This document shows positions 12,530 through 28,850 of a DNA stretch of 64,000 nucleotides, one piece after another. The stretch is from Cystobacter ferrugineus (GTDB lineage Bacteria; Myxococcota; Myxococcia; Myxococcales; Myxococcaceae): NCBI RefSeq assembly GCF_001887355.1, contig NZ_MPIN01000003.1, forward strand, positions 686,278 through 750,277, given 5' to 3'. The position numbers and the translations under genes were made by a program. The notes beneath the pieces were generated by a model, which saw nothing but the letters and a program-made list of their open reading frames with translations, did no database searches and was not told the DNA's origin. Every line of letters starts with the position of its first letter. Position 1 is the stretch's first letter.

Positions 12530-12530
12530 C

Positions 12531-12926
12531 ATGAGCCGTCCCTCCTTCCTCGACAAGTTCACCGGTGCCGGGCCGCGCGCGCCGGGCCGTCAGGGCGAGC
12601 TGGAGCGGGTGCGGCTCAACCTCGAGTCCGTGCTCAACACCAAGGAGGGCTACGGCTACTTCGTCGAGGGCTTCGGCCTGGGGCGCTATACGGAGAAGTT
12701 CGGCACCCAGGACTTGATGAAGACGCTCACGGGCGAGCTGTTGCACTCCATCCAGACGCACGAGCCGCGCCTGCAGGACGTGGAGCTGAAGCTGCGCGGC
12801 CGGGACTCGGGATTGTGGCTGCACTTCGTGCTGACCGCTACACTGCTCGGCGCCCCGTGCACGCTGCGGCTGCTCTTCCATACCGTGAGCGCCCAGGTGC
12901 GCGTGGATACGGATGAGGAGCGATGA
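12531..12926 (+). CDS. tssE: T6SS baseplate protein TssE (gp25-like)
   Basis: I take ATG 12531, 1 bp after the tssK stop. The 131-residue protein begins with the short FLDKF motif typical of TssE and carries the gp25/lysozyme-like fold: LNLESVLNTKEGYGYFVEGF, then a strand-helix region, and a C-terminal CTLRLLFHTVSAQVRVDTD. The EPRL segment seen in phage gp25 is present as HEPRLQDVELK. TssE belongs to the baseplate wedge and nucleates the sheath. Its stop codon overlaps the ATGA start of the downstream spike gene. Confidence 0.88.
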   Translation: MSRPSFLDKFTGAGPRAPGRQGELERVRLNLESVLNTKEGYGYFVEGFGLGRYTEKFGTQDLMKTLTGELLHSIQTHEPRLQDVELKLRGRDSGLWLHFVLTATLLGAPCTLRLLFHTVSAQVRVDTDEER

Positions 12927-14572
12927 TGGAGCGCACGTTCGAGGATCGGCTGTCGGTGGCGCTGACCCTCACGGTGGGGGGGGTGGCGCACGAGGTCATC
13001 GCCGGCAGCATCAAGCGCGTGGCGCTGGAGTTGTGGAGCTGGGGGTTGCAGGGCGAGGTGGAGTTCCTGCTCACGGACAACTCGGCCCAGGGCGGCCAGC
13101 AGAAGGACGCCCTGCTCGCCGACTTCCTCAAGCCGGATTTGATCGAGGTCGCGCTCGTCATCAAGGCCGTGCTGCCGGAGGTGGCGGCGCGGGTGACGCC
13201 GACGGAGCTGAAGGTGAAGGGCTTCGTCACCGACAAGTCGCTCGTCGAGGACGTCATCACCACCGGTGACAGCAACCTCATCCTCCACCGCCGCTATGGC
13301 ATCCGCTTCCAGGACGCCGCCCAGTTGTTGTGGCGCCAGCACCATCCCACGGCCCTCTACACGGGGAAGACCGTCAAGGACGTGCTGGAGGCGCACAAGG
13401 GCGAGAAGATCTCCCTGAGCTATGACTGGGACGCGGGGCTCGGCACGTCGCACCCGGTGCTCTTCCTGGGGTTGGCGCCCCAGGACGGGGCCAGCTTCTA
13501 CGACTGGGTGATGTGGTACGTGCACGGCCACTCGGGCGTGTTCACCCACGACTACACGACGCACGGCTACAAGTTCGCGGGCGCCAAGGACACCTCGGGC
13601 ACGCCGCTCACGTTGCACGCGCTCAACCTGTCGGGCATGGAGGTGCTGCTGCCCGAGGTCATCCGCCACGACGTGACGGTGCTCAACGCCACGGCCGTGA
13701 GCCCCCAGACCGAGGCCATCACCCAGACGCACGCCGTCACCGGCATCCGCCAGGACGTGCTGCTGTGCACGCCCATCTCCGACGAGGTGCAGGCGCGCGT
13801 GGCGCTGGAGACGGCCCGGCTCAAGCCGCGCGAGTCGGAGCTGGAGCTCATCTGGCGCTCCTTCCCCGAGAAGGCCGTGACCCCGGGCACTCGGGTGAAG
13901 CTGCCCGCCAACGAGGCCTGGAGCGCCGCGGGCGTGGCCAAGGACGAGATCTTCCGCGTGCGCAGCCTGTACCTGTTCGCCGAGGTGGCGGACGAGGATC
14001 AGGAAGAGGTGTACGGCGAGGACTACGCGCTGATGTCGCTGAGCCTGAGCACCCGGCTGGAGCGCGACGCGGAGACCCATGTGGAGCTGCCCGCCTGGCA
14101 GCCCCCGGTCTACCCGCGCTACGTCGAGGGCCTCATCGTCAGCGAGCAGGGCGGGGAGAAGGACGAGACGTGGCAGGCCTACACCGATCCGGACACCTCG
14201 GTGGAGGGCTACAAGGTGAAGCTGCCGCTCTTCGCCAATCAGATCGTCCCCGCGCCCTTCAACCCCAACCTGCTGCCCGGCCACTTCTACTTCCCGGCCT
14301 ACAAGGGGGAGCGGGTGCTCGTGGGGCTCGACTTCCAGCGCGCGTGGATCAAGCGCTTCCTCGACTGGCGCACCGGCGCGCGCATGCCCCAGGCGGGGCA
14401 GGGCGTCCAACTGCTCGTGGGCAAGACGCCCGAGAATGGCACCGCGCTCAAGCACTACTACACGGAGGACAAACCCGTGTTCCTGATGCAGCGCACCCAC
14501 GACAAGGACACCCAGAAGATCCAGCTGAACGAAGGTACGCTGCTCATCCAGGTGAAAGAAGAGCCGTCGTGA
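12923..14572 (+). CDS. vgrG: VgrG-like T6SS spike protein (TssI), first copy
   Basis: This 549-residue protein begins RTFEDRLSVALTLTVGG and has a gp27-like part with GIRFQDAAQLLWRQHHP and SFYDWVMWYVHGHSGVF. The later part (PRYVEGLIVSEQG and PGHFYFPAYKGERVLVGLDF) resembles the OB-fold of gp5, which ends the trimeric head. The sequence stops just after LIQVKEEPS and has no long beta-helix. That element seems to be supplied by the next gene. A second protein with the same motifs is encoded at 24346-26277 on the other strand. It overlaps tssE by 4 bp. Confidence 0.8.
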   Translation: MMERTFEDRLSVALTLTVGGVAHEVIAGSIKRVALELWSWGLQGEVEFLLTDNSAQGGQQKDALLADFLKPDLIEVALVIKAVLPEVAARVTPTELKVKGFVTDKSLVEDVITTGDSNLILHRRYGIRFQDAAQLLWRQHHPTALYTGKTVKDVLEAHKGEKISLSYDWDAGLGTSHPVLFLGLAPQDGASFYDWVMWYVHGHSGVFTHDYTTHGYKFAGAKDTSGTPLTLHALNLSGMEVLLPEVIRHDVTVLNATAVSPQTEAITQTHAVTGIRQDVLLCTPISDEVQARVALETARLKPRESELELIWRSFPEKAVTPGTRVKLPANEAWSAAGVAKDEIFRVRSLYLFAEVADEDQEEVYGEDYALMSLSLSTRLERDAETHVELPAWQPPVYPRYVEGLIVSEQGGEKDETWQAYTDPDTSVEGYKVKLPLFANQIVPAPFNPNLLPGHFYFPAYKGERVLVGLDFQRAWIKRFLDWRTGARMPQAGQGVQLLVGKTPENGTALKHYYTEDKPVFLMQRTHDKDTQKIQLNEGTLLIQVKEEPS

Positions 14573-14616
14573 AGAGGGAGGGGGGCCCTCGCGCCTCCCA
14601 TTGGTGAGGGTCGACC

Positions 14617-15219
14617 ATGGGCAAGCTTGTCTGCACCGTCGAGTTGGACAAGGAAAAAGGCGTCACCGTGAAGGTGGAGAACGCCGACGGGAAGATCACC
14701 CAGACGGTGGTGATGGACGGCACGAGCATCACCCTCAAGGTCCAGGGTGACGCGGAGACGAGCACCATCGTGCAGAAGCAGGACAGCGTCACCGTCACCT
14801 GCAAGGACTTCACCGTCGATGCCACCGGCACGCTCACGCTCAAGTCCGCCAAGGCCTCGAGCTGGGCCAGCCAGGACATCCTCAAGGTGGAGAGCACCAA
14901 GGACATGACGCTGGCCACCCAGGCCAAGCTCACCCAGAGCGCGGCCCAGGATGCCAAGTTCTCCTCCAACACCAACGTGACCGTGGAGGCGACGTCCAAG
15001 CTCGATCTCAAGGGCATGCAGACGAGCCTCACGGCCTCGGCGGGAGACAACAAGGTGGAGGGCGTCAACCTGAAGATGTCCGGCAAGGCGCAGGCGGAGC
15101 TGTCCGCGCCCATGACGAAGGTGGAGGGTCAGGCCAAGCTCGGCCTGGAGTCCACGGGCGTCGCGGAGCTCAAGGGTACGATGACCACCGTGGGTGGTTC
15201 GCTCGTGAAGGTGGGGTGA
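14617..15219 (+). CDS. Stand-alone beta-helix-like spike extension
   Basis: The 200-residue protein is made almost entirely of short alternating strands rich in Val, Thr, Ser, Lys and Asp (VTVKVENADGKITQTVVMD, SVTVTCKDFTVDATGTLTLK, VTVEATSKLDLKGM, KLGLESTGVAELKGTMTTV). This is the pattern of the gp5/VgrG C-terminal beta-prism or beta-helix needle. It lies 44 bp after a VgrG-like gene lacking such a tail and 1 bp before tssF. I infer that it trimerises and completes the spike. It could instead be an independent cap or cargo carrier. No catalytic motif is seen. Confidence 0.55.
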   Translation: MGKLVCTVELDKEKGVTVKVENADGKITQTVVMDGTSITLKVQGDAETSTIVQKQDSVTVTCKDFTVDATGTLTLKSAKASSWASQDILKVESTKDMTLATQAKLTQSAAQDAKFSSNTNVTVEATSKLDLKGMQTSLTASAGDNKVEGVNLKMSGKAQAELSAPMTKVEGQAKLGLESTGVAELKGTMTTVGGSLVKVG

Positions 15220-15220
15220 G

Positions 15221-16876
15221 GTGGCGGTGAGTGACTCGTCGGACCGGATCTACCTGGAGTACCTCAATGAGCTGGATGCGCTCGAGCGCTTCCGGCAGCG
15301 CTTCCTGACGGCCTACCCCACGGTGCCCCTGGACCGGGAGGATCCGCACGTGCGGCGCCTCGTGGAGTCCATGGCCTTCTTCTCCGTGCAGACGCGCGCG
15401 GCCACGCAGCACAACGTGCGCTCCACCTGGCTGCGGCTCTTCTCCGCCTTCTTCGACTTCCTGCTCCAGCCCCTGCCCGCGGTGGCCATGGTGCAGGCGT
15501 TGCCGGGGGACAAGATGACGGAGACGGTGGTGCTGTCGCGGGGCACCGAGCTGCGGCTGTCGCCCGCCCATGGCTCGCCCGGCAGCTTCCGCACCCGGCG
15601 CCACCTGCGCATCCTTCCCATCGCCCCGGCGGGCACGGACGTGGTGCGGCTGGTGGATGGGCGCTACCGGCTCATCCTGCGCTTCGAGTCCAGCTTCGCC
15701 CGGAGAGATCCCGTGGGCATGTTCAGTCTGCACGTGCGCCACCTGGACGAGTACCGCCCCTCGCTCGCCGTCTTCCACGCGCTGCGCCAGCACCTCAAGC
15801 AGGTGTCGGTGGTCTACGACACCCCCGCCAGCGAGACGACCCAGGGCACCCCGTGCGAGTTCTTCCTCGGCGACTCTCCGGCCGAGCTGGACGACGCGGG
15901 CGCCTACGAGCACCCGTTGCACCGCGTGCGCGCCTTCTTCCAGATGCCCGAGCAGGGGCTCTTCCTCCACGTTTCCGTGCCCTCGCACCGCAAGGAGTGG
16001 AGCCGCTTCAGCCTGTGCCTGGACCTGGACAAGTCCTGGTCCGTGGGCCGCTCGACCCACCCGGACTTCCTCGTGCCCTTCGTCGTGCCGGTGGAGAACC
16101 TCAAGGCCGAGCCCGCCCAGCCCCTCATCGCCGATGGCACCCGCTCCGAGTACCCCATCCGCGGCATGACGGCCGGCAAGGACTTGCGGCTGCACTCGGT
16201 CACCGGCGTGTACACCCTGGGCCGCTCGGGGCGCGTGCCCATGCGTCCCGCCTTCCTCCCGGGCGAGGGGCCAAGCTACGAGCTGGATGAGTCCCTGGAC
16301 GCGGAAATGCGTCCACGTCACAGTCTGCTCGTGTCCCTGCCCGAGGCCTTCGCCGAACCCCAGAAATTGTTGGTGGAAGCCCTCTGGCACCAACCTGGCT
16401 TCATCACCGAGGCCGTCGGCCGTGTCGGCATCTCCATCCCGGGCCGGCATGTGGAGGGGTTGGATTGGCGGCTGGTGGGCCGGCTCGAGGCCCACCGCGA
16501 TAGCACGCTGCGCCATGACGTGGCGGGGCTGACCCGCCTGCTCGCGTGGAAGGTCAAGTCGACCCTGGATCGCAACGAGCTGGCCGCGTTGCTCAACTAC
16601 CTGGGCACTCCCGTCGACGAGCCCTTCAACCGCGTGTTGCCCTGGGTGCGCGAGCTCAAGGCCACGGTGGCTCCGGACGGAGCCTTGCGCGGCTCGGGCC
16701 TGCTCCACGTCTACGACATGCTCCTGGAGCCCTTCGACTCCAGCGCCGAGCCGCTCGTGGCCTGCTTCCTCGAGCAGATCCAACGCCTGCTGGAGGCCTG
16801 GAACGGTGAGGCCTCCGTGGTGCTGCGCTCGTCGATCGCGGGCGCGGGCGCCTTCCCGGTGAAGACTTCGTCATGA
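15221..16876 (+). CDS. tssF: T6SS baseplate subunit TssF
   Basis: It starts at GTG 15221, 1 bp after the previous stop. The 551-residue protein has the TssF N-terminus: IYLEYLNELDALERFRQRFL, then EDPHVRRLVESMAFFSVQTR, and a proline-containing LQPLPAVAMVQ, equivalent to YPHYLAPIPSMAIVQF. It forms the baseplate wedge with TssG and TssE. Here tssF and tssG lie more than 6 kb apart in the operon, whereas in many classical clusters they are neighbours. The 3' end overlaps tssL by 4 bp. Confidence 0.92.
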   Translation: MAVSDSSDRIYLEYLNELDALERFRQRFLTAYPTVPLDREDPHVRRLVESMAFFSVQTRAATQHNVRSTWLRLFSAFFDFLLQPLPAVAMVQALPGDKMTETVVLSRGTELRLSPAHGSPGSFRTRRHLRILPIAPAGTDVVRLVDGRYRLILRFESSFARRDPVGMFSLHVRHLDEYRPSLAVFHALRQHLKQVSVVYDTPASETTQGTPCEFFLGDSPAELDDAGAYEHPLHRVRAFFQMPEQGLFLHVSVPSHRKEWSRFSLCLDLDKSWSVGRSTHPDFLVPFVVPVENLKAEPAQPLIADGTRSEYPIRGMTAGKDLRLHSVTGVYTLGRSGRVPMRPAFLPGEGPSYELDESLDAEMRPRHSLLVSLPEAFAEPQKLLVEALWHQPGFITEAVGRVGISIPGRHVEGLDWRLVGRLEAHRDSTLRHDVAGLTRLLAWKVKSTLDRNELAALLNYLGTPVDEPFNRVLPWVRELKATVAPDGALRGSGLLHVYDMLLEPFDSSAEPLVACFLEQIQRLLEAWNGEASVVLRSSIAGAGAFPVKTSS

Positions 16877-17511
16877 AACTCGAGCATTGGCAGATCGTCC
16901 TCCAGTCCTACCGGCAGGTGCGTCTGGTGTTGGATCGGTCCCTGCCGCCGGAGCCCGCCGACGGTGAGCCCAATCCCCAGGTCCGCGTGGGGGCCCAGGG
17001 GCTGGAGCTCGTCCACCAGCAACTGATGGCGGAGGTGAAGGGCCTCGAGCAGGCGCTGGGCAGCGCGTACCGGGAGGAGGAAATCAAGGAGGCGCTGCGG
17101 CCCTTCGTCTACTTGATAGACGAGCGGGTGCTGCGCCGGCTCTCGGACGCCGAGGACGCCCAATGGAGCCTGCTCCAAGCCAAGGAGTACAAGACCGATG
17201 CGGGTGGTGATCACTTCTACGAGCTGGCCGACGAGAAGCTCGCCCAGCGGGTGGCCTCGCCGCTGGTCTTCGAGATGCTGCACTTCTGCCTCACCGCCGG
17301 CTTCGAGGGCCGCTACACGGGCAACAAGGCACGGCTGCGCGAGTACAAGGAGCGGCTGGCGGCGCGGATCGCCAAACCCGAGGCCCAGCCTGTTCCCCCT
17401 CCTGCCGTCGGACAGGCCCCTCTCGTCCACGCCTTCCCGGTGCGCTACTACCTCGTGTCCGCGGCCGTGGTGGTGACACTCCCGGTCTTGCTCTGGTGGT
17501 TGTCGAGATGA
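16873..17511 (+). CDS. tssL: T6SS inner-membrane protein TssL (DotU)
   Basis: The 212-residue product has a cytoplasmic helical DotU domain (ALRPFVYLIDERVLRRL, FYELADEKLAQRVASPLVFE, MLHFCLTAGFEGRYTG) and a single C-terminal transmembrane helix (YYLVSAAVVVTLPVLLWWL). It has no periplasmic OmpA-like peptidoglycan-binding domain, so anchoring to the wall must come from another protein. TssL partners with TssM and TssJ, both encoded just downstream. It overlaps tssF and the next gene by 4 bp each. Confidence 0.92.
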   Translation: MKLEHWQIVLQSYRQVRLVLDRSLPPEPADGEPNPQVRVGAQGLELVHQQLMAEVKGLEQALGSAYREEEIKEALRPFVYLIDERVLRRLSDAEDAQWSLLQAKEYKTDAGGDHFYELADEKLAQRVASPLVFEMLHFCLTAGFEGRYTGNKARLREYKERLAARIAKPEAQPVPPPAVGQAPLVHAFPVRYYLVSAAVVVTLPVLLWWLSR

Positions 17512-17819
17512 AGGACGAGGCGCAGAAGAAGACGCAGCCGGTGGGGGCCCGGTCCCAGTTGGGGCACCTCGAGCAGGCCATTCGCACCGAGCTGGGGGCG
17601 CTCCACACCGCGGTGGAGCCCTTGCTGGTCGAGGTCCGCGCGGACGTGAACGCGCTCCATCCGGAGTCGGGGGGCACGCGCCTCGCGCCCAAGGAGCAGG
17701 AGAGCCGGCAGGACAAGCTCCTGGGCGTGTTGAATGAATTGGAAGATGTGCTGGAGGCGCTCCAGCTGGCTGTACGCTCGGGCCGTCCTGGTCCCGCCGC
17801 GGCCAGTGGGGAGGAGTGA
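17508..17819 (+). CDS. Small T6SS-operon protein, unknown
   Basis: A 103-residue hydrophilic protein placed between tssL and tssM, starting in an ATGA overlap and ending 3 bp before tssM. It contains two predicted amphipathic helices (LGHLEQAIRTELGALHTAVE and QDKLLGVLNELEDVLEALQL), so a small coiled-coil partner of the membrane complex is possible. I recognise no family. The tight spacing on both sides argues that it is a real translated gene. Confidence 0.6.
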   Translation: MKDEAQKKTQPVGARSQLGHLEQAIRTELGALHTAVEPLLVEVRADVNALHPESGGTRLAPKEQESRQDKLLGVLNELEDVLEALQLAVRSGRPGPAAASGEE

Positions 17820-17822
17820 GCC

Positions 17823-20800
17823 GTGGGGTGGCTGCTGAACGTGGTCGTGTCGGAGTCATTGAGCGCGGCGGATCCAGCCAAGGCGATGGAGACGGGAGCG
17901 CAGTCGATCGCCGCCAGTGAGTCCGCGTTCCAGAAGTTCTGGAACGCGGTGAGTCCCTACGTGCCCTGGGTGCTGTTGCTGCTGGGCCTGGCGCTCGCCG
18001 TGTTCGTCGGCTGGAGGCTCGTGAAGTGGTGGCGTGCCCGGCGCGCGGCCTCTCCGGCCGCCAGTGGCCCTCCGCCCATGGCCCCGCAGCGCCTGGTGCA
18101 GGTGCGGCGCACCTTCCTCAACGGCCTGCCGCTCGCCCATCGCGCCGCCGTGGTGGATCTGCCCACCGTGGTGGCGTTCGGCCCCGCGGGCAGCGGCAAG
18201 ACGAAGCTCATCGGCCTGGACGTGGACTGGCAGCGCCAGGCGCGCCAGTACCTGCCCAGCTACACGTCGGATCCGCTGCTGCAGATATACCTGGGCCCCG
18301 ACTGCGTGGTGCACGAGGTGTCGGCCCCGCTGCTCGAGGACGAGACGCTGCAAGCCCGCACCGCCCTGCGGCGCATGTGGGGCAAGTGCTTCAGCCACCG
18401 CCAGCAGGGGCTGGCCGTCATCGTCCTGGACGTGCGTTGGCTGTCGGATACCCCCCCCGACGAGCAGCGGCGCTTCGCCCAACTGCTGCGCGGCAAGCTC
18501 AACCTCATGTCCGAGGCCTGCCGCGGTCCGGTGGAGACGCGCCTGTGCCTGACGAACATGGACGGCCTGGAGGGCTTCGAGGACTTCGCCCGGCTGCTCA
18601 AGGCGCACGGCGTGGCGCTCGCCTTCGACATCCCCAAGCAGGGTGAGGAGGACGGGCTGTCCTCACTGCTGCGCAGCCAGGAGCAGTACCTGGCCCTGGG
18701 CCTCACGTCGCTGCCCGTGGACGCCTTCGAGCGGCTCGAGCGCTTCTACTCGCAAGGCGGGCGCTCGTTCTCGGGGCTCGGCCGCTTCGTCACCGCGCTG
18801 CTCGAGGGCGATACCCTCTCGTACAAGCCGCTGCTCTCGCGCGTCTATCTGTCCTCCCTGACGCCCGAGGCGCGCGCCAGTGGCACGCTGTCCGTGGTGG
18901 CCGAGGAGGGCGCCAACGACTCGATGCGCAAGCTGTACCTGCGCACCCACCTGCGCCGCGCCGCCGGCATCGCCGCGCTGTTCTGTCTGCCCGTGCTGGC
19001 CGCCTACGCGAACTTCTTCCTGTTGCTGGACGAGGCCCAGGACGAAGTGGCGGTGCTCGAGGAGACGGTGACGCAACTGCGCGAGCAGGGGCTGGAGGGC
19101 AGGGGAGAGGTCGTCGAGGTTCAGGTCAACAAAGCCGCCGAGGCGCTCCTGGAGCTCAAGCGCGCCGAGCGCTGGTGGCCTCCCCTGGAGACCAGCTTCC
19201 CCGACGAGACGCTGGAGCTGCGCCAGCGCCTGGCCAGTGGCATCCGCGAAATCCATCTGCGGCCCGCGCTCGAGCGCTGCCGCAAGCAGCCCCAGGCCTG
19301 CCGGCCCGAGCAGGTCGTCTACCTGCTGGCCACCCTCCACGCCTCGAATGAGGACGGTCTGGGCACGTTCGTGAAGTCCAATCTCTCGAAGGGCTCGCGC
19401 CGGTTCGGCTCCAAGTCCGCCGCGCCGGATACCCTGTCCGGTGAGTCCCACCGCACGTGGATCTCCGCGCTCGACCTGAGCGAGCCGCTGATCGCCACCT
19501 ACATCATCTCCAGTGACGAGCCCTGGGAGCGCACGCCGCCGTGCCCCCGTGACTCCAGGGTGCTGCTGTCCAACACCGAGGAGGTCTGGTCCTGCTGGCC
19601 CTTCGCGGAGCGCATCACCTTCGAGAGCCAGCTCAAGCCCTGGTTGGATCACCTCCGCTTCCTGCGCCGCTCCCTGGAGGCGGGCCCCCGGGGCATCGCC
19701 GAGTTCGATCTGCACCGCGAGGAGCGCGAGCGGCTGCTCGCGCAACTGGCCGACCTGGACGTCTACGCGTCCCTGCCCACGCTGCTCAACCTGTTCGATG
19801 CCTCCAAGGTGCAGGTCAACACGCGCTACTTCCAGGGCATCGAGACCACCGTCGACGTGCTCGAGTGGTTGCGCAACAACCGCGAGGCGCTCACGGCGGT
19901 GCTGCGCATGGAGGACGATGCGTACTCGGGGCTGCTCGCGGTGCGCAAGATGGGCGCCTCGGAGCTGCTCACCCGGGACGGGCTCTGGTTGCCGGGCAAC
20001 AACAAGGGCCCCTACCGCATCGAGCTGCTCCAGGAGTCCTTCGAGTTCGTTCCCGCCAAGCTCTCGCGGGATCTGCTCCAGAAGGAGCTCGACACCCAGG
20101 AGGCCAATGGTCAGCTCACCGTGAACGCCCAGGCCGCCGTGCGCCCGGGGGCGATGGTGCTCAGCCGCACCGCCTTCGAGACCGACTTGAAGCCCCTGGT
20201 GGATGACTTCACCCAGCGCATCAAGAACGCCCAGCTTCCCACGGACGAGGCCGCCCGGCGCTCCCAGTACGTGCAGAAGCGCGTGAATTCCTTCTCCCAG
20301 GGCTACCGCGACGGCCTGTTCCACACCGTGGACCAGTACCGCTTCAACGTCCCGCGCAAACAGCTCATCGACGAGCTGGGGCGGCTGTCCCAGCCCTCCT
20401 CCGGCCAGGTGGACATGCTGCGCGAGGTGGCCGAACGGGCCAACCTGGATCCCCTGGAGGGGCCCTACTACGAGCCGCTGCGCAACGCCGTGGCTCCCTT
20501 CCGCCCCGTCGTCCAGCTCATGGTGGCCGACAAGAGCGGCTTCTACGCCGCGCTCTCCCCCTATCAGGCGCTCGTGGCGCAGATGCGCGACGAGCTGGAT
20601 GCCGGAGCCAAGGCCAAGAGCGCCAAGGACGCGGCCGCCAAGGACGCACCGGCCTCCGACAAGGAGGAGGCGCCCGAGGAGGGCCCCCCGGCCGACGCCC
20701 AGTTGTCGGAGATGATCAGCCCGCTGGAGAAGGTCGCCCTCGCCATGCTGCTCGAGGAGGAGAGCTCCTACCTGCGCAAGGCCCAGGCGTGGCTGGACTC

Positions 20801-21596
20801 CCAGGGCATCACCGGCGAGTTGCGCCAGCCCTTCCTGGAGCCCTTCCTGAGGGTGCAGAAGCTGGGCAAGGAGGAGCTGGAGGGCACCCTGGCGCGGGAG
20901 TGGGAAGAAGCCTCGTCGCGCATGCTGCGGCCCCTGCTCTCGCGCTATCCCTTCAACCCCGACGCCAAGGAGGACGTGGATCCGAGCGAGCTCGAGGTGC
21001 TGCGCCGCAAGGATGGTGCTTTCTGGCACTTCGTGGAGCAGGTGTACTCGCGCGTGTGCGTGGAGCGGGGCACCCAATGGGCGCTGCGCGGCACCCTGCG
21101 TGACAAGCTGCAGCTACCCGAGTCGCTCCTGCCCACCCTCAGCCAGGTGGCGCGGCTGTCCAAGTTGCTCTGGGACGACGAGGGCCGTCCCCGGCCGCTC
21201 ATGCTCAAGGTTCAGCCCCAGCCCCTGCCACCCCCGCCGCTGCCCGGGGTGTTCGTCACCATGTCGTCCCTCAAGTGCGGCAAGACGACCGCCTACGGCT
21301 TCAACCAGAGCCCCTCCTGGCAGGACTTCCCGCTCAACTGGTGGGATCAGCAGGTGTCCTCCATCGTGTTGGAGCTGCGCTCGCCCTCGCGCGACGATCC
21401 CAAGTTCTTGTCCCTGCCCTGGAATCGCTCTATCTGGAGCTGCTTCCGTCTCTTCGAGGAAGCCCTGGTGACGACCGACCAGCGCCGCCAGTGGAGCCTG
21501 GTCCTGCAGGGGAACAACGTGAACAAGCGGGGAGTGGACATCAGCTTCGGCCTCAAGGGAGACCCCTGGGTGCCGTTCCGGGAAGTGCCGCGATGA
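17823..21596 (+). CDS. tssM: T6SS membrane complex protein TssM (IcmF/PdpB-like)
   Basis: It starts at GTG, 3 bp after the preceding stop. The 1,257-residue protein has the TssM plan: an N-terminal transmembrane helix (residues about 47-67), a cytoplasmic NTPase-like domain with an intact Walker A (FGPAGSGKTKL, near residue 120), another hydrophobic segment near 379-402, and a long periplasmic part with a beta-rich C-terminal domain that contacts TssJ. An Ala/Lys/Asp/Glu-rich spacer (near residues 925-960) interrupts the periplasmic region. It overlaps tssJ by 4 bp. Confidence 0.93.
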   Translation: MGWLLNVVVSESLSAADPAKAMETGAQSIAASESAFQKFWNAVSPYVPWVLLLLGLALAVFVGWRLVKWWRARRAASPAASGPPPMAPQRLVQVRRTFLNGLPLAHRAAVVDLPTVVAFGPAGSGKTKLIGLDVDWQRQARQYLPSYTSDPLLQIYLGPDCVVHEVSAPLLEDETLQARTALRRMWGKCFSHRQQGLAVIVLDVRWLSDTPPDEQRRFAQLLRGKLNLMSEACRGPVETRLCLTNMDGLEGFEDFARLLKAHGVALAFDIPKQGEEDGLSSLLRSQEQYLALGLTSLPVDAFERLERFYSQGGRSFSGLGRFVTALLEGDTLSYKPLLSRVYLSSLTPEARASGTLSVVAEEGANDSMRKLYLRTHLRRAAGIAALFCLPVLAAYANFFLLLDEAQDEVAVLEETVTQLREQGLEGRGEVVEVQVNKAAEALLELKRAERWWPPLETSFPDETLELRQRLASGIREIHLRPALERCRKQPQACRPEQVVYLLATLHASNEDGLGTFVKSNLSKGSRRFGSKSAAPDTLSGESHRTWISALDLSEPLIATYIISSDEPWERTPPCPRDSRVLLSNTEEVWSCWPFAERITFESQLKPWLDHLRFLRRSLEAGPRGIAEFDLHREERERLLAQLADLDVYASLPTLLNLFDASKVQVNTRYFQGIETTVDVLEWLRNNREALTAVLRMEDDAYSGLLAVRKMGASELLTRDGLWLPGNNKGPYRIELLQESFEFVPAKLSRDLLQKELDTQEANGQLTVNAQAAVRPGAMVLSRTAFETDLKPLVDDFTQRIKNAQLPTDEAARRSQYVQKRVNSFSQGYRDGLFHTVDQYRFNVPRKQLIDELGRLSQPSSGQVDMLREVAERANLDPLEGPYYEPLRNAVAPFRPVVQLMVADKSGFYAALSPYQALVAQMRDELDAGAKAKSAKDAAAKDAPASDKEEAPEEGPPADAQLSEMISPLEKVALAMLLEEESSYLRKAQAWLDSQGITGELRQPFLEPFLRVQKLGKEELEGTLAREWEEASSRMLRPLLSRYPFNPDAKEDVDPSELEVLRRKDGAFWHFVEQVYSRVCVERGTQWALRGTLRDKLQLPESLLPTLSQVARLSKLLWDDEGRPRPLMLKVQPQPLPPPPLPGVFVTMSSLKCGKTTAYGFNQSPSWQDFPLNWWDQQVSSIVLELRSPSRDDPKFLSLPWNRSIWSCFRLFEEALVTTDQRRQWSLVLQGNNVNKRGVDISFGLKGDPWVPFREVPR

Positions 21597-22123
21597 GCGC
21601 GTGTGGACGCGCCTGCCTGGGCCTGCTGGCGCTCGTGCTGGGGGCTTGTGGGCCGAGTCAGATCAACATCGCCGTGAAGTCGCCCGTGGGCACCAACATG
21701 GGCCGGCCCCTGTACATGCTCGTGCGGCAGGTGGACCCCAAGCAGTACGCCAACGAGGCGTACTCGGAAGTCGCCGCCCGCGTGGGTGTTCCGGACACCA
21801 CCGTGTTGCAGACGGCCGTCATCTACCCGGGCACCATCCAGCGCTTCCAGGTGAAGGCGCCCAAGGAGGGCTCGGTGGCGCTCTCCTTCCTCTTCACCGC
21901 GCCGGACGGCAACTGGCAGGTGCTGCTCAGCCCGCCGCTGGCGAGCGCGGTGGACGTGGAGCTGGCCACGAGCCGCATCCTGCGCGACACCATTCCCCAG
22001 GGTCCCTCCCTGGACGAGCCCCCCGCGGCCCCCGAGGGCGCTCCGGAATTCAAACCGCCGGAAGCCCCCAAGGCGCCGGAAGCCCCCAAGCTGCCCGAAG
22101 CGCCCAAGCTCGGCGGCAAGTAG
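21593..22123 (+). CDS. tssJ: T6SS outer-membrane lipoprotein TssJ
   Basis: Starting at ATG 21593, the 176-residue protein has a short lipoprotein signal with the lipobox LGAC, then a TssJ-like beta-sandwich (GRPLYMLVRQVD, FQVKAPKEGSVALSFLFTAP, GNWQVLLSP). The last 40 residues are a Pro/Glu/Ala/Lys-rich repetitive tail (KAPEAPKLPEAPK) not usual for TssJ, which could span the periplasm or contact peptidoglycan. TssJ anchors TssM to the outer membrane. It is the last gene of the (+) operon, and the convergent gene ends 2 bp beyond. Confidence 0.88.
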   Translation: MSACGRACLGLLALVLGACGPSQINIAVKSPVGTNMGRPLYMLVRQVDPKQYANEAYSEVAARVGVPDTTVLQTAVIYPGTIQRFQVKAPKEGSVALSFLFTAPDGNWQVLLSPPLASAVDVELATSRILRDTIPQGPSLDEPPAAPEGAPEFKPPEAPKAPEAPKLPEAPKLGGK

Positions 22124-22124: not shown

Positions 22125-24092
22125 TCAGCCCGTCAGCTCGAGCACCCGGGCCTCGGTCCTCCCCATCACCGAGTCCACCTGGGTGCGGGCCCGCTCCACC
22201 ACTGGCGCAAAGGGGTTGTTGTCGCGCAGCGAGGCTTCCAGCGTGTCCAGCGGCACGAGCAGCCGCTCCTTCGTCGAGTCCACCTGGCCCAGCATTCCGT
22301 CGAGCTGTGCGGCCGCGGGATCTCCCACGCTTCCGGCCCGCTGGGTGAAGGCGCCGAGCACCTGATCCACCTGCTGGGTCACCTCGGCCTCGAGGCGCTC
22401 GAGCCCCTCGCGAGCCCGGGCGAGCGCCGAGTCCACCGCGCCGCCGATCGCATCCAGGCCGGAGCGCACCCGCTCCTGGGCGGCGGCGAGCTGCTGCTCG
22501 AGCTGGGCCTCCACCGCCGCCACCTGATCGGCCGCCGCCTGGACTCCGTCCGCGAGCGCCTGCTGGAGCGTCGCGAGCTGCTCGCCCACCAACTGCTGGA
22601 GGGACTCCACGCGCGCGGCCACCTGGGCCAGCAGCGTCTCCACCTGGCTCACCACCTGATCGCGCGCGGTGGCGATCCGCTGCGTCATCTGCTCCACCAA
22701 CTGCTCGGCCTGGGCAACGGCCTGATCAATGCCGCTCTGGACCGACTCGGTCAGGGATTGGATCTGCTGCAGGAGCTGCTCCTGCATCGTCTGCACCTGC
22801 TGCACCGCCTGCGCCTGGATCTGCTCCACCTGGGAGATGACCTGATCCTGCACCGTGGTCATCTGCTGGCCCACTTGAGCGGTGAGGGTGCCGAGCTGCG
22901 TGGAGATCTGCGTCACCACCTGTTTGATGGCCTGGACGGCCGGGTCCACCAGCGGCTTGGGGAGATCCGCCGCGGGGATGGCCTCCAACATCTGCACCGC
23001 CCGGGACAGCAGGGACTCCAGCGTGCCCACCAGCGTCTTGAACAGCGTCTGGAGCTGCTCGAGCTTCTCGGGCAGGGCGGTGAAGATGGCCTGGATCTGC
23101 GTCTCCAACTGCTCGAGCGTGTCCGTCAGCCCGTCGAACACCTTGAAGGCGGAGTCGATCGCCAGGCGCGCCGGGGCCTGGATGGACTCGAAGGTGGTGC
23201 GCGCCGTGTTCATCAGCGCGTCGATGGCGCCGACGCCCTGGGTGATGAGCGCGTCGATCTGCTCGCCCATCTGCTGGAGGAACTGCTCCGCCCCCTCGAG
23301 CTGCTGGCTCAGCGAGCGCACCGGCGCGCCCAGTGTCTGATCCAACGTGTCGAGCATCTGCCCGAGTTGTTGGCTCCCCGCCTGGAGGGCGGCACCGACG
23401 GTGGTTTCCAGCGTCTGGAGCACCTGATCCGCCGCCTGGGTGGCGCCTTGCACCTGGGTGCGCAGCGGCTGGAGTCCGGAGCGCAGTTGCTCCACCTGGC
23501 GCCGCACGCTGTCCTTCGAGGACTCGCTCGTGGATTGGATCTCCCCGTGAAGTTGCTCCAGGGCCGGGAGGACCGGGGCGAGCACCGCGTCGAGCGCGGC
23601 GAGCAACCGCTGGACCTCCGCGTCCACGGAGTCGCGCGTGCGCGTCACCTGACCGGACACCGAGTCCGCCGTGGTCGCGATTTGGGAGTGGGCCCCTTGG
23701 AGGTGCGACTCCGTCTCGCCGCCCGTCGTGCGCAGCAACTCCTGGAGTTGTTGCTCCCGGGCCTCGAGTCCCTCCAGTTCCTGCTGGCGCTCCGCCTCGC
23801 TCCGGGCGGTGTCGGCGCGCACCGCCGCCTTGCGTTGCTGGAGGCGGGCCGTGCCCTCGCTCAAGAGCGTCTCGCGGCGTCTGGCGGTGTCTTCACCGAG
23901 CGACTCGAGCTGCTGGGCGAAGGAGTCCCGCGAGCCCTTCACCTGCTCCTCCAGGGCGTCACACCGCGAGGAGACCGAGGGCGTGAGCTCCTTCACCGAG
24001 TCGCGCACGCGCTCCCCGGAGCCATCGAGCCGCGCGCGCAGGCCCTGTACCTCGTCCGCCGTCTGGTCGAACCGCGTCCACAGCGCCTTCAC
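22125..24092 (-). CDS. Very long coiled-coil protein linked to second VgrG
   Basis: A 655-residue, almost wholly helical protein with heptad-like Gln/Leu/Val repeats (for example QVISQVEQIQAQAVQQVQTM and QVVSQVETLLAQVAARVESL). There is no signal peptide, membrane helix or enzymatic motif. The GTG start follows directly on the TGA of the preceding small ORF in the same frame, with GGAG 6 bp before the GTG. So either it is a coupled second cistron, or the two are one gene interrupted by a nonsense codon. It is the last gene of the (-) strand T6SS-like module. I infer a structural or cargo protein for the second spike. Confidence 0.6.
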   Translation of the reverse strand: MKALWTRFDQTADEVQGLRARLDGSGERVRDSVKELTPSVSSRCDALEEQVKGSRDSFAQQLESLGEDTARRRETLLSEGTARLQQRKAAVRADTARSEAERQQELEGLEAREQQLQELLRTTGGETESHLQGAHSQIATTADSVSGQVTRTRDSVDAEVQRLLAALDAVLAPVLPALEQLHGEIQSTSESSKDSVRRQVEQLRSGLQPLRTQVQGATQAADQVLQTLETTVGAALQAGSQQLGQMLDTLDQTLGAPVRSLSQQLEGAEQFLQQMGEQIDALITQGVGAIDALMNTARTTFESIQAPARLAIDSAFKVFDGLTDTLEQLETQIQAIFTALPEKLEQLQTLFKTLVGTLESLLSRAVQMLEAIPAADLPKPLVDPAVQAIKQVVTQISTQLGTLTAQVGQQMTTVQDQVISQVEQIQAQAVQQVQTMQEQLLQQIQSLTESVQSGIDQAVAQAEQLVEQMTQRIATARDQVVSQVETLLAQVAARVESLQQLVGEQLATLQQALADGVQAAADQVAAVEAQLEQQLAAAQERVRSGLDAIGGAVDSALARAREGLERLEAEVTQQVDQVLGAFTQRAGSVGDPAAAQLDGMLGQVDSTKERLLVPLDTLEASLRDNNPFAPVVERARTQVDSVMGRTEARVLELTG

Positions 24093-24317
24093 TCAGGGCT
24101 CCAGGTCCGCCAGCTCGGCGTCCAACGATTCGATCTTCCCCGTCAGCCCGCCGTCCACCGAGGACACCTCGGGCCGCAGGGAGGCCAGGGTCTGCTCGAG
24201 CTTGCCCGACAGGGAGTCCACGCCGCCGCGCAAGGGCGTCAGGCGGGTCACCACGCCCGTGCTGAAGGACTCCAGTTGTCCGCGAAGCTCCGCGATTTTC
24301 GCGCTCAGTTCCCGCAT
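24093..24317 (-). CDS. Small helical protein upstream of and in frame with the coiled-coil gene
   Basis: A 74-residue ORF beginning MRELSAKIAELRGQLES and ending in LADLEP. Its heptad-like helical character resembles the following 655-residue ORF, with which it is perfectly in frame; only a single TGA separates them. It lies 28 bp downstream of the second vgrG-like gene. It may be a real small cistron, or the N-terminal part of one 730-residue protein broken by a point mutation. Confidence 0.5.
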   Translation of the reverse strand: MRELSAKIAELRGQLESFSTGVVTRLTPLRGGVDSLSGKLEQTLASLRPEVSSVDGGLTGKIESLDAELADLEP

Positions 24318-24345
24318 GGGTGTCCCCCATCCATCCGTTCGTTGC

Positions 24346-26277
24346 TCACCGCAGTTTCTTCAGCGACGCCTTGGCCGACTCGCTCGCCGCCGAGAGCTGA
24401 CCGGAGCTCTGGGACAGCTTCGAGGAGGCGCCCTGCATGCCACTCCTGGCCGCCGCCACCTTGGCACCCACCTCCGCGCGGGCCGCCTTCATCGTCGCCT
24501 TCATCGCCGTCTGGGCGCTCTGCATCTTCGCACGCGAGGCAGCCATGGCGCCCTGGAAGGCGGCCGACGTCTGTCCGAGCGAATCGCCCACCGCCGCCGA
24601 GAGGTCTCCCTTGGCGGCCTCCACCTGGGGGGTGACGTCGTAGGTGGGCGTGGGCGTCTTCGAGGCCTCGGTCTCCTTCACCTGGATGAAGAGGTTGCCC
24701 TCTCCCATGCGGATGACCTGGGTGTCGCCCCCCGAGGTGCGAAACATGCGCCACACGGGCTTGTCCTCCTGGAAGTCATGGGTGAGCGCCGTCTGGCTCG
24801 ACTTGCTCTCGCCCAGGAGGATCTGATCCCCCTGGCCGGACTGGGGCGTGCGCACGCCTTCCTTCCACGCCAGGAAGCGCAGCAACTCGGCGCGCTCGTG
24901 GTGCAGCGCCACCAGCACCCGGGTGCGCTTGTAGGGCGGGAAGAAGAACTGACCCGGCATGTGCGTGGGCTCGGCGGGCACGCTCACGGTCTTGTTCCAC
25001 AGGGGGACGGTCATCCGGTAGTCGGTGATCGAGGTCTTCTCGTCCTCGACGATGAGGTAGCGCCGATCCTCGGGCTCGCCGCCCGGACTGTGCACCAGGC
25101 CCTCGACGTGGATGGGATAGCGGGGGACGCGATAGGCGGGCAGGGCGACGGCCGCCTCGGAAGAGGACTCCAGCCGGAGCGACATCCTCACCGCGTACGG
25201 GGCCCGGAAGTCCTGCTGCTGCTCGTAGGGGCCCGCGCCCTCGGCATGGGCCTCGAAGTCCAGCTCCGCCACCCGCATGTCCTCGTCGAGCCCCGTCAGG
25301 GACGCGGGCCAGAGCGAGCCCTCCAACCGCAGCAGCGCGCCAGGGAAGACATCCACCGTGGGATAGCGCTTGAAGGCCACCTGGAGCTGGCGCTGGTGGA
25401 GCTTCAGGCGGGTCTTCTCCAGCTTCTCGCGATCATCGGCCCGGTTGGCGAGCGGGGTGCGCACCAGCACGTCGTGGAACGTGCCCTGGACGGCCTGGGG
25501 TTGATCGATCGGCGTGGTGGTGGGGCCCTGGGCCACGGCGTTGAGCACCCGCGCTCCGTGGCGGATGGGCGGCGGCAGGAGCACCCGCGTGCGGTGGACC
25601 CGGAGCGGACCGAGCGGCGCCGCCTGTCCCGAGGACGGCTTGCTGTCGGCGAAGAGGTACTCGTTCTTCTGGCTGTCGTAGCTGAAGACGCCCTGGTGCG
25701 CGTCCACGTACCAGCAGACGTAGTCGTAGAAGCTGACCCCCGGCTCATCCGCGCCCAGGGCCAGGCAGATCATCGGCAGCTTGCGCTTGAGCTCCGTCCA
25801 GTCGAGCGCGAGCTGGAGGCTGGCCTTGTGCGCCTCGAGCAGCTCCTTCATGGAGGTGTTGGTGTGCAGCTCGATGGGGCGGTGCTGCCGCCAGAGCACC
25901 TGGGCGGCGTCGGCGAACTCGAGCGTGTAGCGGCGGAAGACGCGCTCGGCGCCCTGGACGGTGCCGTGCTCCTCCGCCACCAGGCGGCGGCTGCGCACCA
26001 GTCCCTTCAGGACGAGCGGCGCGGGAGGCGAGGTGAGTTCGGGATCCTCGGCGGCGATGGAGACGCGCACCTGGATGAGCTCCGGCTTCTGGAAGGCGAT
26101 GAAGAGGGGCGCGTCCTGCTTCTCCAGCGAGGTCCAGAACGTCACCGCCGCGGTGAAGCCATGCGAGGCAAGCTGCACCGACAGGTGTTTGATCTGCCCG
26201 CCGGGAATGGAGAAGGAGGTGCCGCCCGCCGTGAGTGACAACTCCAGCCGGAGATCGTCGTGAAATGTCTTACCCAC
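24346..26277 (-). CDS. VgrG-like T6SS spike protein, second copy, with helical C-terminal extension
   Basis: I chose GTG 26277 because GGGAGG lies 6 bp upstream and the N-terminus (VGKTFHDDLRLELSLTAGG) then lines up with the start of the first VgrG-like protein. The 643 residues share its motifs: FADAAQVLWRQHRP, SFYDYVCWYVDAHQGVF, PGQFFFPPYKRTRVLVAL. After the shared end (NLFIQVKE) there is an extra tail of about 100 residues, rich in Ala, Ser, Lys and Met and predicted to be helical (SRAKMQSAQTAMKATMKAA). This replaces the beta-helix that follows copy 1. The two helical ORFs downstream may bind this tail. Confidence 0.75.
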   Translation of the reverse strand: MGKTFHDDLRLELSLTAGGTSFSIPGGQIKHLSVQLASHGFTAAVTFWTSLEKQDAPLFIAFQKPELIQVRVSIAAEDPELTSPPAPLVLKGLVRSRRLVAEEHGTVQGAERVFRRYTLEFADAAQVLWRQHRPIELHTNTSMKELLEAHKASLQLALDWTELKRKLPMICLALGADEPGVSFYDYVCWYVDAHQGVFSYDSQKNEYLFADSKPSSGQAAPLGPLRVHRTRVLLPPPIRHGARVLNAVAQGPTTTPIDQPQAVQGTFHDVLVRTPLANRADDREKLEKTRLKLHQRQLQVAFKRYPTVDVFPGALLRLEGSLWPASLTGLDEDMRVAELDFEAHAEGAGPYEQQQDFRAPYAVRMSLRLESSSEAAVALPAYRVPRYPIHVEGLVHSPGGEPEDRRYLIVEDEKTSITDYRMTVPLWNKTVSVPAEPTHMPGQFFFPPYKRTRVLVALHHERAELLRFLAWKEGVRTPQSGQGDQILLGESKSSQTALTHDFQEDKPVWRMFRTSGGDTQVIRMGEGNLFIQVKETEASKTPTPTYDVTPQVEAAKGDLSAAVGDSLGQTSAAFQGAMAASRAKMQSAQTAMKATMKAARAEVGAKVAAARSGMQGASSKLSQSSGQLSAASESAKASLKKLR

Positions 26278-26364: not shown

Positions 26365-27777
26365 TCAACCGCGCAAGGGCAGGGTGAGCTCGAGCTCGAC
26401 GCGGGTGCCGGCCAGCTCCGGGGGAAGCGCGGCGCGCACGTGCAGACCCCGCTCGCCCCGGCCCAGGGAGACCACCTGCCCGTGCAACTCGCAGCGGCGG
26501 CCCGGGCCCGCGGGAAGGAACGCGCTCGCCGCGCGGGCACACACCTCCGAGATGGCCTGGGGACTGGCCTGGGGGGGCAGCCGCTCGGTCAGCTCCTGCG
26601 CGAGGCGGACGATGCGGCCGGTGAGCAGTTGCGCGGGGAGGGGCGCCGCGTCCCGGCCTCCGTACACGGTGGGCGCCGCCGCCAGGTTCACGTCCCGCGA
26701 GTCCCACCACCCACTCACCCCCGCGACGCCCCGCGAGGCCAGCCGCTGCTGCTCCCGGAGGGAGAGGCACGCCTCGGTCGCCACCGGGCCCCGTCCCTCC
26801 TGGGGCCGCCACACCGCGGGCGCACGCACCGAGCTGCCCGGACCCACGAGCCGCGCGAAGGTATGGGTGTCTCGGAAGCTCGCCGCCAGCAGCGCCGCCA
26901 CGCCCAGTACGGGACTGGCGAGACACTCGCCATGCACCTCTCCGTGCCGCTCGGCGCGCATCACCACCGGGTTGAGCGCGGCGCACAGCCAGCGCGAGGA
27001 CTCATCGGCACGCAGCCGGCTCCACGCGTCCGGGGGACGGAAGTCCTGGGCGCCCGCGAGCCCGGCACCACCCAGGGACACGGGGGCCGCCATGACGAGG
27101 GGGAGCCAGGCCTGCTCTCCCAGGGCGGCGAGCTTACCCGGGGTGGCCGGGTCCTCGCCCACGTCCAGCAGGAAGCAGGCATCGGGACGCTGGAGCGCGG
27201 GCCCTTCGAGGCTCGCGGCGAGGGTGTCCACGAGCGCCTCGGGCCCGACGTCGAGCACCTCGAGGTCCATGCCCGCGGAGGCGGGGCACTGCGTCCACAG
27301 CCAGTGCAGCCCACGCCAGGCGGACTCCAGCCGGGCCACGAGCGGATGTTGGAGCAGCTCCCGGGCGGTGGTGAACAGGGCCTCCTCGACGAGGGCGAGC
27401 GAGGCGGAGCGGGAGGAGCGGGCGCGCGCCAATGCCTCGGTCAGGCGGCCCTCGCCCAGCGAGGCCCGGAGCTGGGCGGCCTCCTCGGACGCGAGGGGAC
27501 GCGTGCCCGAGATCGCCTCGCGCAGGGCACCCAGGGCACGCAGCTCCGGCAGGGAGGCGATGAGCGCGGACATCCCGAAGGCGTCCAGCGAGCCGAAGGA
27601 CAGCGTGTGGGTGCTCGTGTCGCCCGAGCCGATGCGGTCCGGCACGGTGACGCGCAGGCCCGTGGTGGCGCGCCGGAGCTCCTCGGCGAAGGACTGCTCG
27701 GTGAGCGGGAAGCGCCGCCCCGTGGGCGAGGGATGGAAGGCGCCGGCGACGAGCCAGCGCACGCGGTTGCCGGACAT
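26365..27777 (-). CDS. TssB-TssC-like single-chain sheath-related protein
   Basis: This 470-residue protein has an N-terminal part like TssB: VRWLVAGAF corresponds to FRVVVTGDF, and LSFGSLDAFGMSALIASLPE to the KSFHPDEIVHHVPKLKAL region. It then continues as TssC: VARLESAWRGLHWL corresponds to FQKMESAWRGLEDL, MDLEVLDV to ITIDILDV, and SPVLGVAALLAASF to YLWGSAALLMGRNLV, with a closing strand pattern VELELTLPL. It is shorter and much diverged from the operon's own TssB plus TssC. Its start (ATG 27777; GTG 27780 also possible) overlaps the aroF stop. It precedes the second vgrG-like gene by 87 bp. Function is unknown; it may be a cap or adaptor rather than a contractile sheath. Confidence 0.65.
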   Translation of the reverse strand: MSGNRVRWLVAGAFHPSPTGRRFPLTEQSFAEELRRATTGLRVTVPDRIGSGDTSTHTLSFGSLDAFGMSALIASLPELRALGALREAISGTRPLASEEAAQLRASLGEGRLTEALARARSSRSASLALVEEALFTTARELLQHPLVARLESAWRGLHWLWTQCPASAGMDLEVLDVGPEALVDTLAASLEGPALQRPDACFLLDVGEDPATPGKLAALGEQAWLPLVMAAPVSLGGAGLAGAQDFRPPDAWSRLRADESSRWLCAALNPVVMRAERHGEVHGECLASPVLGVAALLAASFRDTHTFARLVGPGSSVRAPAVWRPQEGRGPVATEACLSLREQQRLASRGVAGVSGWWDSRDVNLAAAPTVYGGRDAAPLPAQLLTGRIVRLAQELTERLPPQASPQAISEVCARAASAFLPAGPGRRCELHGQVVSLGRGERGLHVRAALPPELAGTRVELELTLPLRG

Positions 27778-28850
27778 CACGCCGCGCGGCGCGTGGGGAG
27801 CACGCCGCGCAGGATTTCATGGGCCTGGCGCAGCATGGTCTCGGTGGTTTTCCAGTCCACGCACGCGTCCGTCACCGAGCAGCCATAGCGCAGCTTGGAC
27901 AGATCGGCGGGGATGGGCTGGTTGCCCGCCTCGATGAAGCTCTCGATCATCAGGCCCATGATCGAGCGGTTGCCCTCGCGCACCTGGTGCACCACGTCGC
28001 GCATGACGAGCGGCTGCAGCTCGGGCTTCTTGCTGGAGTTGGCGTGCGAGCAGTCCACGACGAGGTTGCACGGCAGCTTCGCCTTGGTGAGCGCCTGCTC
28101 GGCGAGGGTGATGGACACCGTGTCGTAGTTGGGCCGTCCGCCACCGCCGCGCAGCACCAGGTGTCCGTGGGCATTGCCCCGGGTGCGGATGATGGCCGAC
28201 ACCCCGTTCTCGTTCAGCCCCAGGAAGCTGTGCGGGTGCGAGGCGGAGAGGATGCCGTTGACGGCCGATTCCAGCGAGCCGTCCGTGCCGTTCTTGAAGC
28301 CCACCGGCGTCGACAGGCCCGAGGCCATCTCCCGGTGGGTCTGCGACTCCACGGTGCGCGCGCCGATGGCCGTCCAGGACACCAGGTCGCCGTAGTACTG
28401 CGGCGCGATGGGATCGAGCGCCTCGGTGGCGGCGGGCAACCCCAGCTCGGCCACGTCCCTCAGGAAGCGGCGGCCGCGCTCCATGCCTTCCTCGATGTGG
28501 AAGGAGTCGTCCATGCGCGGATCATTGATGAAGCCCTTCCAGCCCGTCGTGGTGCGCGGCTTCTCGAAGTACACCCGCATCACCACGCACAACGTCTCGC
28601 GCACCTCCGCGGAGAGGGCGAGCAGGCGGCGCGCGTAGTCCATTCCCGCCACGGGATCGTGGATGGAGCAGGGGCCCACGATGACGAACAGGCGCGGATC
28701 CCTGCGCTCCAGGATGTCCACCAAGGCGCGGCGGCCGGCGAGGACGGACTCGGCCGCTCGCTCCGTCATGGGGACCCGCTCCTTCATCTCGGCGGGAGTG
28801 GCCATGCGGTCGATGCCGACGACATTGAGGTTTTCGGTGCGGGAGGTCAT
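27777..28850 (-). CDS. aroF: 3-deoxy-7-phosphoheptulonate synthase (type I, AroF/G/H family)
   Basis: The 357-residue enzyme condenses phosphoenolpyruvate with erythrose 4-phosphate, the first step of the shikimate pathway. The start is ATG 28850 (MTSRTENLNVVGIDRM), matching the family length of about 350. Visible motifs are VIVGPCSIHDP, RVYFEKPRTTTGWKG, GARTVESQTHREMASG, the metal/substrate region VVDCSHANSSKKP, and SIMGLMIESFIEAGNQ near the C-terminus. Which aromatic amino acid inhibits it cannot be read safely, so the letter of the symbol is tentative. It lies 58 bp after mltG and its stop overlaps the TssB-TssC-like gene. Confidence 0.93.
   Translation of the reverse strand: MTSRTENLNVVGIDRMATPAEMKERVPMTERAAESVLAGRRALVDILERRDPRLFVIVGPCSIHDPVAGMDYARRLLALSAEVRETLCVVMRVYFEKPRTTTGWKGFINDPRMDDSFHIEEGMERGRRFLRDVAELGLPAATEALDPIAPQYYGDLVSWTAIGARTVESQTHREMASGLSTPVGFKNGTDGSLESAVNGILSASHPHSFLGLNENGVSAIIRTRGNAHGHLVLRGGGGRPNYDTVSITLAEQALTKAKLPCNLVVDCSHANSSKKPELQPLVMRDVVHQVREGNRSIMGLMIESFIEAGNQPIPADLSKLRYGCSVTDACVDWKTTETMLRQAHEILRGVLPTRRAA

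Follow-up and report, generated by a model that had tools for sequence, protein, structure and literature searches.

The window analysed here, a stretch of 64,000 nucleotides from Cystobacter ferrugineus, contains on its minus strand a gene that encodes a TssB-like part followed by a TssC-like part in one chain. The open reading frame spans positions 26365-27780 when read from a GTG and 26365-27777 when read from an ATG, giving a protein of 471 or 470 residues, respectively, which belongs to what we call the short form of the fusion. The ATG at 27777 overlaps by its first base with the stop codon that ends the DAHP synthase gene lying upstream (TGATG; 27777-28850, minus strand); that gene is outside the system, and upstream of this ATG the open frame leaves room for only about 12 more codons.

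In Pfam searches, VipB (PF05943) matched residues 128-190 of the window protein with an E-value of 8.8e-8, above the curated cut-off and over 63 of the 301 profile positions, and VipA (PF05591) matched residues 26-90 below the curated cut-off (E 0.0021). Nine homologues share 42-95% identity with the window protein, with many invariant positions common to all. Within an alignment of ten members (alignment A1) and at E ≤ 0.1, VipB was found in all ten sequences (best 6.7e-17) and VipA in nine (best 2.5e-6). A profile of 15 family members matched 18 distinct chains of the PDB at E ≤ 1, 17 of which are chains of sheath entries or TssB/TssC-type by name; the name of the last one, 4ps2_A, is just "putative type VI secretion protein". 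E-values were 1.2e-47 for VipB and 5.8e-14 for TssB chains, and in the TssC chains the match extends nearly to the C-terminal end. The resemblance to sheath proteins is therefore far beyond chance, an explanation ruled out by the matches of alignment A1 together with those of the family profile in the PDB. All these observations confirm the single-chain TssB-TssC fusion that the first-pass annotation had read from the letters of the sequence, with profile matches present for both halves. VipB_2 (PF18945; the C-terminal gpW/gp25-like domain) had no Pfam match in the window protein or in the members of alignment A1.

Three further minus-strand genes form one group with the fusion gene and encode a 643-aa protein (24346-26277), a 74-aa helical protein (24093-24317) and a 655-aa coiled-coil, apolipoprotein-like protein (22125-24092). 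This group (22125-26277), which could be a cargo or tape-measure-like module, is convergent with a type VI secretion system (T6SS) cluster on the plus strand (6078-22123). The cluster comprises genes for DUF4280, a TssG-like protein (below cut-off), TssB, TssC, an unmatched 192-aa protein in the place of Hcp, TssK, TssE, a 549-aa hub-like protein, a 200-aa protein, TssF, TssL/DotU, a TssM-like protein and an IglE_N lipoprotein; no ClpV-type match was found among its called genes. Its tssB (8492-9085, plus strand; VipA E 1e-43) and tssC (9131-10621, plus strand; VipB E 1.4e-115) are indeed separate and canonical and lie about 16 kb from the fusion, as had been stated before. The 549-aa protein and the repetitive 200-aa protein next to it (12923-15219, plus strand), neither of which has a Pfam match, are perhaps a VgrG split across two genes. 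With the 549-aa protein of the main cluster the 643-aa protein shares 40% identity, and it is spike- or hub-like by resemblance only. Its earlier description as a spike received no confirmation: its sole Pfam match was a coil below cut-off (E 0.038), PHROG and PDB searches gave none, the comparison with a three-row VgrG profile was not significant (E 0.46), and a structure model based on a two-row alignment reached a pLDDT of 36.

Fold and anatomy of the fusion protein

An AlphaFold2 model of the fusion, computed from a 15-row alignment, had a pLDDT of 80.6 and a pTM of 0.85. Each of the best 17 Foldseek matches was a chain from a T6SS sheath, a contractile injection system or a phage tail. 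TssC/IglB chains of T6SSs aligned with the model from its residue 91-148 to its residue 453-458 (Z 20.3-22.6), and the whole VipB sheath domain aligned by fold (Z about 22, 17% identity), which, together with the Pfam match, upholds the earlier assignment of the remainder of the chain to TssC. Among the matches listed, 41 other rows (phage tails, pyocin and eCIS, with chain names not always given) had Z-scores of 15.1-21.1, and in all 41 rows model residue 1-7 pairs with chain residue 20-36, so that the missing piece is the N-terminal arm. For the R2 pyocin chain 3j9q_A, for example, 300 residues were aligned (Z 19.4, rmsd 4.0), with model residues 5-459 lying on chain residues 24-366. The predicted fold is shown by computation to be one nearly complete sheath protomer with domains 1 and 2. 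The fusion thus shares with the sheaths of contractile phages, R-pyocins and eCIS the single polypeptide over domains 1 and 2 and a near end-to-end alignment of the model (Z 15-21), whereas it differs from them by the absence of the N-terminal arm, by a sequence of the TssB/TssC lineage and by the lack of any PHROG match to the window protein at E ≤ 1.

The TssB-like part comprises about residues 1-95 (27493-27777) and, according to the VipA match and the PDB profile, starts at strand beta2. Only five residues precede this strand, and the N-terminal handshake arm (beta1) is absent; hence, the proposal that the N-terminal part follows TssB holds from the second strand on and fails for the arm. 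Among 115 TssB-type frames the beta2 motif was located in 109, each with at least 30 preceding residues. Ten TssB-type PDB chains were found with the family profile, six matched from chain position 25-31 and three from 57-60, the tenth being a chain of 79 residues. A TssB profile matched 19 of 22 fusions of the Myxococcaceae lineage, never ahead of profile position 63. On Polyangia-type fusions the match begins at position 30-37, except for L276 (60), and on the alphaproteobacterial fusion L300 at position 2. A short strand-like N-terminal stretch, as read by eye, is mostly kept in Polyangia-type fusions.

The TssC-like part, delimited by the VipB match and by structural and sequence alignments, comprises about residues 120-470 (26368-27420). 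The N-terminal region of TssC (about 70-90 residues), which contains the helix targeted by ClpV (PMC5807055, PMC10433429), is absent from the short form. In T6SS sheaths, the N-terminal strand of TssB and the C-terminal strand of TssC are described as donated to neighbours, with two TssC strands as acceptors (PMC5807055); the linkers run toward the ring nearer to the baseplate, and TssE has been proposed as acceptor for those of the first ring (PMC5813253). The C-terminal handshake region of the window protein, placed at residues 430-467 (26377-26490) by the secondary structure of the model and the VipB alignment, contains the predicted strands 430-439 and 442-451, which by position would form the acceptor pair, and 460-467, which would be the C-terminal donor. 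These C-terminal strands of the model align with VipB as far as residue 474-476.

At the column of VipB Asp333, taken as index 273 of 3j9g_B plus 60, an offset inferred from chain length and alignment range, the window protein has Leu340 (26758-26760), and all 27 canonical TssC proteins compared have D or E. Leucine occupies this column in all nine short forms. The Myxococcaceae lineage has no acid there in any of its 22 fusions, but 4 of the 15 Polyangia-type fusions do have one. VipB K223 was considered as a second marker and discarded as not discriminating, K/R being missing there in 7 of the 27 canonical TssC proteins too. Across 69 positions near-invariant in canonical TssC, the 22 Myxococcaceae-lineage fusions keep 20-30%, which bears out the description of the window protein as a divergent sheath protein. 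Together with the loss of the acid at D333, this suggests that the constraint of a sheath protein may be relaxed in these 22 fusions. The column counts, like the tree described below, are based on a hand-picked set of 44 fusions and 28 TssC proteins, from which the copies of G002, G006, G090, G095 and G107 were left out and L275 was dropped because the script found no WRG motif in it.

Occurrence and relatives of the fusion

The homologue search across myxobacteria revealed a conserved family that is not unique to the window. Counting strong matches to alignment A1, among them the frameshifted copy in G002 and fragments at contig edges (G006, G090, G095, G107), the fusion is present in 44 of 96 genomes of the bacterial family, distributed over 7 genera. 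Canonical TssC, scored by VipB_2, the listed matches of which are canonical frames only, was found in 65 of the 96 genomes, including all 44 with a fusion; none of the 31 genomes without canonical TssC has a fusion. The fusion is absent from 21 of the 65 TssC-positive genomes, 16 of which belong to genus g26. Canonical TssC is likewise present in all eight genomes behind the named or MAG fusion loci. In the genome G000, full canonical TssC is encoded at four loci (C1:493141, C3:649048, C3:695633 and C6:231027).

Two forms of the fusion can be distinguished, a short one of about 460-475 aa and a long one of about 540-560 aa with some 80-90 extra residues between the TssB-like and the TssC-like part. 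By eye, and partly by profile (5urw TssC from chain position 20), these extra residues resemble the N-terminal region of TssC. The short form occurs in 15 genomes, 14 of which have TssC within about 30 kb on the same contig, the remaining one, G006, being represented by contig fragments. Both forms occur together in four genomes (G059, G061, G084 and G086). The long form is present in Myxococcus xanthus AM003, M. eversor and Archangium lansinium, and no T6SS genes were seen in the surrounding 20 kb in Myxococcus and Archangium. The fusion gene of G002 (L032, 9923-11337) shows either a frameshift near residue 400 or a sequencing error. Locus L130 (BNCN01000009.1), titled Comamonas sp., is Myxococcus-like, agrees in fusion length and score with that of G099 (L094) and looks mislabelled.

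A first contig search with the single window protein as query yielded no matches; a second one with alignment A1 as query led to 80 kept loci, mostly of canonical TssC. The deep-branching MAG fusions L135 and L136 are located directly after clpV, fha and one further gene. L141 encodes a 629-aa fusion beside tssA-tssB-tssC, with VipA (4e-14) and VipB (4e-41) both above the Pfam cut-offs, and a search with this protein in 193 genomes near L141 yielded at least 36 relatives matched over at least 500 residues without a stop. For the gene context, 25 loci were read, 20 of them hand-picked from the matches of L141 and complemented by L134-L136, L140 and L141; genes were called by script within stretches of up to 22 kb and named by BLASTP at E ≤ 1e-6. 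In 22 of these 25 chosen distant loci, T6SS core genes were found in the fetched stretch. There, at most one called gene separates the fusion from tssC in eight cases and at most three separate it from fha in 13, and in the last one (L278) it lies elsewhere in the cluster. The other three, L261 (with a VgrG-like gene only), L262 and L280, showed no other T6SS core gene in the fetched stretch.

Fusions were also found in alpha- and betaproteobacteria and others, namely in Leisingera (1205 aa, on a plasmid), Siccirubricoccus (607 aa), Eleftheria terrae (592 aa) and a MAG labelled Marinifilum (621 aa), all four with VipA and VipB above cut-off. The alpha- and betaproteobacterial fusions have no match to the C-terminal acceptor (handshake) region, and among the five proteobacterial fusions read, one, L300, keeps the N-terminal arm. 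The fusions of Leisingera and E. terrae lie in T6SS clusters and resemble the window protein in carrying VipA and VipB in one chain, but they differ in the missing C-terminal handshake match, in low-complexity acidic stretches or tails and in their position on a separate long branch. The frames of the alphaproteobacterial fusions L300, L307, L308 and L311 measure about 620-1720 aa and lie among or close to T6SS genes, one of them with long acidic repeats. In L306 (160-1824) and L310 (1474-3021), a TssB-like domain stands at the C-terminal end of frames of 554 and 515 aa, respectively, apparently fused to an upstream protein.

In a tree of the TssC part with 71 rows, built by a quick method and with long branches that leave the deep order unsure, a branch with SH-aLRT 95 separates all 37 myxobacterial fusions from the other rows, the short forms group in a single clade (100), and the fusions of alpha- and betaproteobacteria sit on a long branch of their own. 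The public plasmid annotation names fusions "type VI secretion system contractile sheath large subunit". Automatic annotation thus files a separate family under the name of a contractile sheath large subunit, and counts of T6SSs or trees of sheath proteins can go wrong as a result.

With the TssB/TssC (VipA/VipB) sheath, the fusion shares homology to both subunits, the protomer fold, the genomes and, in distant relatives, the gene clusters. In contrast to this sheath, it is one chain and comes on top of canonical TssC in all genomes checked, the window lineage is without the N-terminal arm of TssB and the short form without the N-terminal region of TssC. A second TssC-type protein alongside canonical TssC is known as TssC40/ImpD from the imp operons of rhizobia and, in Agrobacterium, is required for the secretion of Hcp (PMC3702570, Table 1). 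TssC40 likewise is without the canonical N-terminal region and has no acid at the D333 column (Ser). However, the example compared, that of R. johnstonii, has no TssB part (no VipA), keeps VipB and VipB_2, adjoins tagJ and groups among canonical TssC in the tree, whereas the window fusion has a TssB part and is flanked by the genes for DAHP synthase and the 643-aa protein. With its missing VipA part, TssC40/ImpD was rejected as the same protein; it is a precedent for an essential second TssC. No description of a natural TssB-TssC fusion was found in open-access full text, the scope of the search, in agreement with the earlier statement that no such fusion was known.

Possible place of the fusion in the T6SS

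The fusion might be a conserved accessory part of the T6SSs of myxobacteria, in the form of a sheath-protomer paralogue that is used in few copies, most likely in the ring adjacent to the baseplate; we assign this reading a probability of about 0.45. The fusion would then not form the bulk sheath but take a place in that machine at low copy number, and a ring of it adjoining the baseplate could start or anchor the sheath without itself being expected to contract. The window lineage is without the TssB arm and the acid at D333, two features tied to contraction by work on Vibrio (PMC5797969). A placement on the baseplate side is suggested because the acceptor strands for the arms of the next ring are kept and one of the two downward arms is lost. 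Where the protein would sit in the machine is inferred from these features, and for Myxococcus and Archangium co-occurrence is what suggests a co-operation with the T6SS. In favor of such a role, every fusion genome checked also has canonical TssC, and most far relatives have their genes inside T6SS clusters. For a single sheath protein of an eCIS, it was described that the termini differ in conformation between the first, the central and the last layers (PMC8894135). On the other hand, the co-occurrence of fusion and TssC could come from shared ancestry alone, and, since 21 of the 65 TssC-positive genomes have no fusion, a T6SS can exist without it. In a protein missing 70-80% of the conserved positions, the loss of the acid at D333 is nothing special. 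Moreover, a non-contracting ring is not valid for all members, since Polyangia-type fusions mostly keep the N-terminal stretch and 4 of 15 the acid. Of the functions named by the first-pass annotation, a sheath end-cap or an adaptor between baseplate and sheath is still the most natural reading, whereas a minimal separate injector is not supported.

Distinctly less probable than the baseplate-adjacent ring is that the fusion acts as regulator or assembly factor, either by binding free TssB/TssC or Hcp as a mimic of the protomer or, admixed to the sheath at low level, by delaying or blocking contraction in the manner of a natural dominant-negative. In Vibrio, the exchange D333A, or lengthening of the VipA linker by at least two residues, led to stable, non-contracting sheaths with a dominant effect (PMC5797969), and the changed arm and the lost acid of the fusion recall these laboratory changes, the arm mutants described there being lengthened, not deleted. 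The position of the gene, never within the tssB-tssC pair in the distant loci read, would also permit separate control. However, searches of the window protein for a regulatory domain found none, a mixing with canonical sheath is without support, and the fusion, rather than being patchy, persists in T6SS clusters across many distant relatives.

Slightly less plausible again appears a cap at the growing end of the sheath. The protomer fold and the accessory status would fit such a function, and the alpha- and betaproteobacterial fusions, with no match to the acceptor region, would be unable to take a further ring. The model of the window protein, however, retains both acceptor strands and the C-terminal donor strand, so that this fusion alone would not stop growth.

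It is very unlikely that the fusion is the sheath of a separate minimal injector formed with the spike-like 643-aa, the 74-aa and the 655-aa coiled-coil protein. The four genes are co-directional in the window and have the same order in three genus mates (L031, L032 and L035), but the gene group contains no second tube, baseplate or membrane gene, and the distant fusions lie within ordinary T6SS clusters. The short fusion mostly adjoins the gene of the 643-aa protein and lies up to about 9 kb away in g8 and g15. The 643-aa protein is present at full length in 49 of the 96 family genomes, with a short fusion nearby in 15 of these; all 16 genomes of g26 have the full-length gene without any fusion, and 12 genomes (G025, G096, G098-G100 and G106-G112) have a fusion without any match to the 643-aa protein. 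The unit of fusion and second spike that had been proposed is contradicted by this distribution across genomes, which mostly refutes one new injector made of the two. It is hardly credible that the gene has decayed into a non-functional remnant of a sheath fusion, as the G002 copy and the strong divergence might suggest, since many positions are invariant between distant genera, the family is present in 7 genera and, among the matches listed, there are no internal stops, one split by a frameshift and few frames that run off contig ends.

Going beyond the baseplate-adjacent ring of the window lineage, it is conceivable, if rather unlikely as a whole, that myxobacterial and, separately, some alpha- and betaproteobacterial T6SSs use an undescribed single-chain sheath paralogue as a dedicated end ring. 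The window line, with the arm lost and the acceptor kept, would be a static ring on the baseplate side and the proteobacterial line, with the acceptor lost and an arm that can stay, a distal terminator, so that gene fusion would have made the subunit of a two-chain polymer position-specific more than once. The composition of the distal end of T6SS sheaths has been called unclear (PMC5813253). The fusion bears on how these sheaths start on the baseplate and on how they close at the far end. As a conserved sheath paralogue with altered arms occurs in Myxococcus xanthus (AM003), its role is directly testable.
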